DNA of 64,000 bases. Source: Chloroflexota bacterium. GTDB lineage: Bacteria; Chloroflexota; Dehalococcoidia; Tepidiformales; Tepidiformaceae. This document shows positions 17,788-64,000 of this stretch, piece after piece. Made by a program: the position numbers and the translations under genes. Position 1 is the stretch's first letter, and each line of letters begins with the position of its first letter. The notes under the pieces are model-generated. The model saw only the letters and a program-made list of their open reading frames with translations. It did not search any database and was not told where the DNA came from. The stretch is taken from contig JACRBT010000016.1 of assembly GCA_016234445.1 (NCBI GenBank), positions 1 through 64,000 of the forward strand, given 5' to 3'.

Positions 17788-17815
17788 CCCCTCGCCCACC
17801 GCAGTGGGAGAGGGG
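17788..17815. repeat. REP-like hairpin repeat, copy 1
   Basis: CCCCTCGCCCAC - CGCA - GTGGGAGAGGGG, one mismatch in the stem, followed by GGCAGGGGGTGA. The same sequence recurs at 57662 and 57724. It lies between an acyl-CoA dehydrogenase and the VOC gene. Confidence 0.85.
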
Positions 17816-62054: not shown

Positions 62055-62130
62055 GGGGACGTAGCTCATCCGGGAGAGCGCAGCGTTCGCATCGCTGAGG
62101 TAAGGGGTTCGAGTCCCCTCGTCTCCACCA
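62055..62130 (+). tRNA. tRNA-Ala(CGC)
   Basis: Complete cloverleaf GGGGACG...CGTCTCC with G3:U70, anticodon CGC at 62088-62090 and CCA encoded. It reads GCG codons. The 52-bp direct repeat begins 13 bases after it. Confidence 0.96.
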
Positions 62131-62142
62131 ATCCCCCTTCTT

Positions 62143-62194
62143 CCCTGCGCACGAAGCGCGCTCCGCGTAGAATCGCGGCGATGAGCACCCTGCC
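62143..62194. repeat. 52-bp direct repeat, left copy
   Basis: Identical to 63293-63344. It includes the TAGAAT -10 box, an ATG (62181) and the first 14 bases of the CoA-transferase reading frame. In this left copy the frame goes on for 58 unrelated codons and stops. Confidence 0.97.
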
Positions 62195-62235
62195 TGCCCA
62201 CACGGCTTGGCTTGCACCATGCGGCGGCCCGAGGC

Positions 62236-63234
62236 CTATTGCCCTCGGGAAGTGTGCGGAACAAACAGCCGCGTCATTCCGTACGGGGTCGCGTCGAGAA
62301 TCTCAGGTATCGAGTCCCCGTCCTGGTCGATCCATCCAAACAGGGCGGGCTCCGTTATGAAGAGGTCGATGTTCCCCGTCCGCGCCTCCGTCTCCCGGTA
62401 GGTCCACTCATGCTCCCAAGCCCAAGTGTGGGCCATCTCGTGCTGGAACGCGGTCGCGGCGAACGCGTCGGAGCGGTATTGGTCGATCGTGCCCGCGCCA
62501 CCCTCGAAGTACCACCCAACGGCAACGAAGTCCCCGCCCAGATAGGCCCAGCCACCGGCCGGGCTGAGAGGGTCGAGGTCGAGCACGATGAGAACGTCAA
62601 AGGCCGAAAGGTCAAGACCTTGTTGCGAAAGGTAGTCGCGCACACCAGGCCGGTCGACCGGCCTGGCCGGGAGGGCCCCGCGCGGGACAACGACCGATTC
62701 ATCCGTGAACTGAACGAGCGGGCTTTGGTATCCCTGGGCTGTCGCCCATGCTGCGTGTGAGCCGTTTACGCGTGCGACGGACAGTGGCCAATAGGTTGAC
62801 AGCACTTGCCCGATGTTCACCGTGCCGTAATCGATGCCCACGGTGAGGGTGCGAATCGCGCCCACTGGACGGCGGCACTTCAACCGACGCGCGGAGAACC
62901 GGCCGTCACTGGTGAGCGTGATGCGGTAGACGTACTGGCCGACGTATGCAGTCGATGTCCACCCAGGCCCACAGGGCTCGTTATAGACCGATGGCGGGGT
63001 GAGGTAGGTACACTCCTGAGGGACAATCGCGGGCGCGCGGAGGGGCAACTTGAACTGGCTTTGGAATAGGCAGAGGAACGTCGAAGTCGGGCTGGGGGTT
63101 GGGCGTGGACAACCGTCCGCTTCCACCGCGGCAGGCCCGCCGTCTGCCGACGGAGACCGCGCTGGCAGGAGAGCCCAAGCTCCAACGACCATAAGCGTAC
63201 CCATGAGGAAGAAGGCGCGGGTTCTGACCGACAT
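62236..63234 (-). CDS. secreted HExxH metalloprotease-like protein
   Basis: 332 residues. The signal peptide (RAFFLMGTLMVVGAWALLPA) is followed by a Pro/Thr-rich stretch. The zinc motif is AFQHEMAHTWAWEHEW near 264-279. A cysteine-containing N-terminal half (ECTYLTPP, EPCGPG) and an acidic DQDGDSIPEI near 312 add to the picture. No exact peptidase family was identified. It is the only gene in the 1150-bp unit between the direct repeats and has visibly less biased codon use than the rest. A TAGAAT box near 63277-63272 may be its promoter. Confidence 0.75.
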   Translation of the reverse strand: MSVRTRAFFLMGTLMVVGAWALLPARSPSADGGPAAVEADGCPRPTPSPTSTFLCLFQSQFKLPLRAPAIVPQECTYLTPPSVYNEPCGPGWTSTAYVGQYVYRITLTSDGRFSARRLKCRRPVGAIRTLTVGIDYGTVNIGQVLSTYWPLSVARVNGSHAAWATAQGYQSPLVQFTDESVVVPRGALPARPVDRPGVRDYLSQQGLDLSAFDVLIVLDLDPLSPAGGWAYLGGDFVAVGWYFEGGAGTIDQYRSDAFAATAFQHEMAHTWAWEHEWTYRETEARTGNIDLFITEPALFGWIDQDGDSIPEILDATPYGMTRLFVPHTSRGQ

Positions 63235-63292
63235 ATCCTAGTCTCCCGGCGATAGGCGTGATTCAGCATTCTACGTCTCCCGAGGCTCGGGA

Positions 63293-63344
63293 CCCTGCGC
63301 ACGAAGCGCGCTCCGCGTAGAATCGCGGCGATGAGCACCCTGCC
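63293..63344. repeat. 52-bp direct repeat, right copy
   Basis: Identical to 62143-62194; this copy leads into the intact CoA-transferase gene. Confidence 0.97.
63318..63323 (+). promoter_or_regulatory. -10 box, leaderless (CoA-transferase)
   Basis: TAGAAT ends 7 bases before the ATG at 63331. The same box occurs in the left repeat at 62168. Confidence 0.5.
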
Positions 63345-64000
63345 CCTCGCCGGCGTCCGCGTCTGTGACCTCACCTGGATCATCGCCGGGCCCACGGCCA
63401 CAAGGGTGCTCGCGGATTTCGGCGCCGAAGTCATCCGCGTCGAACACGGCCAGGCCGTGGACGCAATCCGGCTGGGCCGACCGATCGTCGGCGACGCCCC
63501 CACGCTCAACAACTCCGGCTTCTTCAACTACTTCAACCGCAACAAGAAGAGCATGCTCCTCAACACCCGCCACCCGATGGGGGGCGACGTGCTCCGCAAG
63601 CTGATCGCCGCGAGCGACGTCGTCGTCGAGAACTTCTCCAGCCGGGTGATGGAGTCGTGGGACCTCGACTACCCTCAGCTCCGGGAGATCCGGCCGGACA
63701 TCATCTACTGCTCGGTCTCGGGGTTCGGCCACAGCGGCCGCGACCGGGACTTCACGACCTGGGGCCCGACCGCGCAGGCGCTCAGCGGCCTGACGATCAT
63801 GTCCGGGCTGCCGGGGAAGCCGCCGGCGGGCTGGGGCTACAGCTACATGGACCACACGGCCGGCTATTCGGCCGCGATCGCGATCATGGCCGCGCTCCAT
63901 CACCGGAACCGGACGGGCGAAGGCCAGCACATCGACATGTCGCAGGTGGAGGCGGGGATCGTCCTCACCGGACCGGCGGTGCTCGACGCGACGGTGAACG
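63331..64000 (+). CDS. CaiB/BaiF family CoA-transferase (partial, runs off the window)
   Basis: The first 223 residues are present. LAGVRVCDLTWIIAGPTATR near 6, LADFGAEVIRVE near 27, NRNKKSMLLN near 70, VENFSSRVMESWDLD near 96 and the catalytic Asp in SYMDHTAGYS near 171 all fit. The ~20-residue loop GEGQHIDMSQVE near 199 is also typical. It swaps CoA between acids and CoA-thioesters. The substrate is unknown; a fatty or dicarboxylic acid is possible. The start overlaps the right direct repeat. Confidence 0.93.
   Translation, partial: MSTLPLAGVRVCDLTWIIAGPTATRVLADFGAEVIRVEHGQAVDAIRLGRPIVGDAPTLNNSGFFNYFNRNKKSMLLNTRHPMGGDVLRKLIAASDVVVENFSSRVMESWDLDYPQLREIRPDIIYCSVSGFGHSGRDRDFTTWGPTAQALSGLTIMSGLPGKPPAGWGYSYMDHTAGYSAAIAIMAALHHRNRTGEGQHIDMSQVEAGIVLTGPAVLDATVN

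Follow-up and report, generated by a model that had tools for sequence, protein, structure and literature searches.

A perfect 52-bp duplication of a promoter and gene start encloses a single-gene segment in a Tepidiformaceae genome, a probable insertion with long target duplication

In the 64,000-nucleotide stretch of Tepidiformaceae DNA analysed here (the window), a 1.1-kb segment with one complete gene is enclosed by two identical 52-bp direct repeats that correspond to the beginning of a neighbouring CoA-transferase gene. The arrangement is best read as foreign DNA that was probably inserted without a transposase while the 52-bp target was copied. The locus is a probable further case of insertion with long target duplication, and both its cargo and its host differ in kind from those known before. 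The features of the locus are collected in Table 1, together with four other inserts of the same design.

Table 1 Features of the 52-bp locus (window positions) and location of the four other inserts (labels of genomes, contigs and stretches are those of the analysis)
Feature	Location	Strand	Description
tRNA-Ala(CGC)	62055..62130	+	left neighbour of the insert; ARAGORN
Left 52-bp copy	62143..62194	+	putative orphan leaderless promoter and CoA-transferase first codons; sequence, repeat search
Left-copy elements	TAGAAT 62168-62173; start codon 62181	+	
59-codon hybrid ORF	62181..62360	+	translation; antisense to cargo gene 3' end
Inserted DNA	62195..63292	.	1098 bp, GC 0.641; no inverted terminal repeats or recombinase
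Cargo gene	62236..63234	-	332 aa, predicted secreted zincin-like protein; ORF translation and motifs
Right 52-bp copy	63293..63344	+	start of the uninterrupted CoA-transferase gene with its putative promoter, which is conserved in orthologues
CoA-transferase family III gene (CaiB type)	63331..64000, continues beyond the window	+	PF02515, E 1.5e-75; full length 411 aa
obg insert	own genome, C9:126104/128666 (to 128722; L269:6104-8722)		perfect 57-bp repeat, obg 3' end with stop codon; 2505-bp insert, WxL-type surface protein genes
tRNA-Gln insert	own genome, C20:53923/54957 (to 55030; L157)		44-bp repeat, one mismatch; about 1 kb, SnoaL_2 gene, no integrase
icd insert	relative G017, C1:58238/58938 (to 59013; L187:18238-19013)		perfect 76-bp repeat, icd 3' end; 624-bp insert, HigB-HigA toxin-antitoxin pair
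Tepidiforma flava insert	NZ_CP115149, L069:581/1580 (to 1619)		40-bp repeat, one mismatch; SocA_Panacea gene and second ORF

The repeat, CCCTGCGCACGAAGCGCGCTCCGCGTAGAATCGCGGCGATGAGCACCCTGCC, is the longest exact direct repeat of the window. Its two copies are identical at 52/52 positions and spaced by 1150 bp, as the original prediction had described, and an exact match of this length is far beyond chance. The similarity breaks off sharply at the edges, with 2/20 and 5/20 bases matching beyond them. The genome search for additional copies that had been proposed as a check was carried out, allowing up to three mismatches, and only the two sites were found in the 3.54-Mb genome; the 21-bp promoter core of the 52-mer, searched with the same tolerance, gave no hit besides the two copies either. 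Twelve bases lie between the end of tRNA-Ala(CGC) and the left copy, in agreement with the predicted position beside this gene. The host is an uncultured member of the Chloroflexota, and the relatives of its CoA-transferase place it in a family that includes Tepidiforma. The order rimM - tRNA-Ala is kept in the family, and rimM adjoins tRNA-Ala at most family loci. The CoA-transferase gene was located away from tRNA-Ala in every relative examined; a search for an empty site that started from the CoA-transferase orthologues in named genomes met a different gene order, and so did one that started from the tRNA.

As judged from the sequence, the right copy would comprise a leaderless promoter and the first codons of the CoA-transferase gene. 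In the orthologues of this gene, a TAGAAT, a TATAAT or a similar hexamer was found a few bases before the start codon, a conservation that upholds the earlier assignment of the repeat. The pattern points to a leaderless promoter because these elements lie too near the start codon for a ribosome-binding site, so that what is duplicated would be a promoter together with a gene start. As had been proposed, the left copy is orphaned: it lies before the insert, cut off from the CoA-transferase gene, and its promoter would read into the hybrid frame and antisense into the 3' end of the cargo gene. This hybrid frame may be a by-product of the insertion.

One convincing gene is contained in the inserted DNA. 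The protein it encodes displays a signal-peptide-like N-terminus, the motif HEMAHTWAWEH and, further on, PYGM. The first motif would combine HExxH with a histidine at the place of the third zinc ligand of metzincins, while PYGM could be the Met-turn. The cargo is thus a putative secreted, zincin-like and probably protein-cutting enzyme. No family match was obtained in Pfam, NCBIfam, PADLOC, PHROGs or PDB sequences, and the single-sequence structure model (pLDDT 37.5) was too poor for a fold search. A relative with 32% identity was detected in another genome of the phylum (G305), where it is a larger protein with a HELSH motif. The description as a secreted protease is consequently backed by the motifs and by this weak relative, but not by any match in Pfam, NCBIfam or PDB sequences.

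The cargo gene was absent in 37/37 other family genomes searched, and distant relatives were found in only 2 other genomes of the 400 searched in the phylum. Its GC3 is 0.75, below about 94% of 477 long ORFs, its codon fit ranks among the poorest 5% of these ORFs, and the tetranucleotide distance of the insert ranks in the top 3.4% of 1.1-kb windows. The atypical composition is real but moderate, which fits the earlier claim of a unit with one gene of different codon use. Since the gene is missing in the 37 family genomes and its codon use is atypical, it is most likely a recent arrival. A plasmid and a viral source were considered, and neither search gave a match. A perfect 22-bp palindrome, CCAGGCCGGTCGACCGGCCTGG, is located within the cargo gene (window 62645-62666).

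No recombinase family match was obtained in the insert, whose sole gene is the cargo, and the predicted lack of a transposase in the unit was therefore confirmed. The unit has no integrase, and no autonomous partner element sharing its att site was found in the genome. The locus resembles insertion sequences and MITEs in that the target is duplicated around the insert. It differs from them in the 52-bp length of the duplication, the lack of terminal inverted repeats (the best end match is 4 bp), the lack of a transposase and the single copy, and an element of this type was rejected. The argument that 52 bp is too long for an ordinary IS duplication holds, as the length is outside the range of such duplications and fits a long target duplication. 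An integron gene cassette was discarded as well: the 52-mer has no GTT or AAC, and so no RYYYAAC / GTTRRRY attC core sites.

In the proposed sequence of events, 1.1 kb of foreign DNA with one complete gene would have entered the chromosome where the CoA-transferase gene begins. On entry, 52 bp of the target would have been copied, leaving one copy on each side of the insert and the left one behind as an orphan promoter. The insertion would be harmless because the copied block holds the promoter, the start and the first codons, and the right copy keeps the gene intact; a duplicated promoter can in this way make even an insertion at a gene start tolerable. For the molecular step, a fragment may have been captured at a break, the ends of which, offset by about 50 nt, were filled in and joined. 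Alternatively, a polymerase could have switched template and returned upstream. Neither transposase nor site-specific recombinase would be required. In both versions the length of the repeat would be arbitrary, and insertions at gene ends would survive since the copied block restores the gene. Ku is encoded in the genome, which makes end joining possible. The repeats, once formed, could later allow RecA to delete or amplify the unit.

In order to find comparable cases, long direct repeats enclosing units of gene size were scanned for over about 1.18 Mb of the 3.54-Mb genome, plus stretches of relatives' genomes. The cases were chosen by eye following the mechanical scan, and their number is for this reason not a rate. 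Four other loci showed the same design: the repeated sequence is the end of a host gene or DNA next to it, the cargo looks foreign, and there is no recombinase. Only two further genomes of the family encode a relative of the WxLIP-like protein of the obg insert, at 29-32%. Past the perfect part of the obg repeat a weaker similarity continues (11/20 and 9/20 bases); the changes in it are synonymous, which would suit an orphan end derived from a slightly different obg. An empty site was also sought here, and in none of the relatives' obg loci was the gene downstream of obg a close match to the one in this genome. When the inserts were compared with each other, no common sequence or ends and no terminal inverted repeats were detected, and every insert was flanked by its own, different repeat. 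With no shared sequence, inverted repeats or recombinase, and with repeats that differ, a single transposon family behind all the inserts is unlikely.

The T. flava case provided an empty site. Its two flanks map to one continuous stretch in each of three relatives (L070, L082 and L067), and the 40-bp block in which they overlap is present there only once; the block of L070 is identical to the left copy of T. flava. Read from these alignments, the T. flava locus is evidently an insertion with target duplication. This empty site makes the insertion reading of the 52-bp locus credible without proving it. As the CoA-transferase gene of the relatives is not beside tRNA-Ala, we infer, rather than observe, a single-copy ancestral junction at the 52-bp locus. 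The original prediction of a recent non-autonomous insertion is accordingly retained as the best-supported reading, given the absence of the cargo from 37 relatives, the lack of a recombinase and the sister inserts; before it, the site would have held a single copy.

The main rival explanation is that the 52-bp repeats are the attL and attR of an element mobilised by an integrase that it lost or never carried. Such an element would bring a replacement promoter and gene start, as elements that target tRNA genes or icd bring gene ends. This was judged unlikely for the 52-bp locus; among the inserts, it best fits the one at tRNA-Gln. There, the repeat spans exactly the stretch from the CCA end to the anticodon loop, i.e. 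the 3' half of the tRNA, which is a classic integrase target, and part of the insert class may for this reason be att sites. The location of the inserts at or beside gene ends points the same way; selection alone, however, would leave surviving insertions at gene ends. Integrases adjoin tRNA-SeC and tRNA-Ser(TGA) in the genome and could act in trans, and the similarity that extends weakly past the perfect obg repeat is also compatible with att sites. On the other hand, the unit has no integrase, the 52-mer and its promoter core have no other copy in the genome, the repeats differ from insert to insert without common ends, and a gene 5' end is a less usual target. Break capture or template switching is preferred over an integrase at this locus because the target is the 5' end of a gene, the genome has no second copy of this site and the repeat has clean edges.

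It was further considered that the protease gene originally stood upstream of the CoA-transferase gene and that the left copy is a scar, either of a mostly deleted tandem duplication or of a 52-bp patch copied beside the tRNA when the CoA-transferase gene moved. No relative examined has tRNA-Ala and the CoA-transferase gene side by side, and therefore a rearrangement did happen at the locus. Decayed tandem duplications also exist in the genome, e.g. at C2:350804/351125. Such a duplication should, however, leave more than a perfect 52-bp block, and the cargo gene occurs in none of the other family genomes searched, hence upstream of no CoA-transferase orthologue there. A scar is consequently quite improbable. 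An assembly artefact, or a mixture of strains joined at a short repeat, would be conceivable in a genome of 20 contigs, but is very improbable, since a chimeric join alone does not produce a second gene start on the other side of the insert, and an insert of this architecture also occurs in T. flava. The latter is a named strain with a complete chromosome, and its case is for that reason unlikely to be an artefact of metagenome assembly.

Insertion with long target duplication was reportedly described for restriction-modification genes of Helicobacter pylori and other bacteria by Nobusato and co-workers in 2000 (Gene 259:99) and by Furuta and co-workers in 2010. To our knowledge, its mechanism is still open, and the entry of single genes into bacterial chromosomes without a mobile element is largely unexplained. 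The description from H. pylori, published in 2000, is cited and illustrated in another paper (PMC1643837). According to a review, some restriction-modification systems insert with long, variable target duplications, on the order of 100 bp, and with no known mobile element (PMC3874152). Insertion into existing breaks has been discussed as one possible cause in a 2024 paper (PMC11708052). The inserts found here share with this class the gene size, the host-locus repeats of tens of bp and variable length, and the lack of a transposase; the empty site was demonstrated for the T. flava example, while for the 52-bp locus the single-copy site is deduced. They differ from the known restriction-modification cases in their cargo, which is a putative secreted zincin-like enzyme at the 52-bp locus and toxin-antitoxin, SnoaL_2 and WxL genes in the sister inserts.

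Integrase elements in the 3' ends of tRNA genes or icd have integrase-less relatives (CIME-type remnants). The likeness to these lies in gene-end repeats that restore the gene and in the use of the tRNA-Gln and icd ends by sister inserts. The differences lie in the lack of an integrase, the 5' end used at the 52-bp locus and the separate repeat of each insert.

What seems to be new is that such inserts recur within one family and carry genes that are not of the restriction-modification type. Several fresh inserts with differing cargo and gene-end targets, one of them with clear empty sites, make this family well suited to tests of the mechanism. It is also possible, although somewhat doubtful, that Tepidiformaceae take up single genes or small operons of any function, such as those for secreted enzymes, toxin-antitoxin pairs or surface proteins, by a recurrent route that needs no recombinase and copies 40-76 bp of the target. 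If this were so, gene-end insertions would be harmless and the process would be a general mechanism of gene uptake, perhaps by Ku-type end joining, instead of a peculiarity of restriction-modification systems.

Further long direct repeats turned up by the scans were judged by eye to be gene duplications, members of intergenic repeat families or a CRISPR array, and were left aside. A 76-bp, 92% identical repeat with a terminator-like hairpin flanks a CNNM/CorC transporter gene (C4:98041/99881, to 99956; L139); it is perhaps an older insertion of the same kind and was excluded from the count as diverged and terminator-containing. An intergenic repeat family, CCCCTCGCCCACCGCAGTGGGAGAGGGG..., is present at window positions 17788, 57662 and 57725, with related elements elsewhere in the genome. 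The apparent CRISPR array, with the repeat GTCGTCCCCACACGCGTGGGGGTGAACCG, is located near a contig end (C16:118700-119400; L267).
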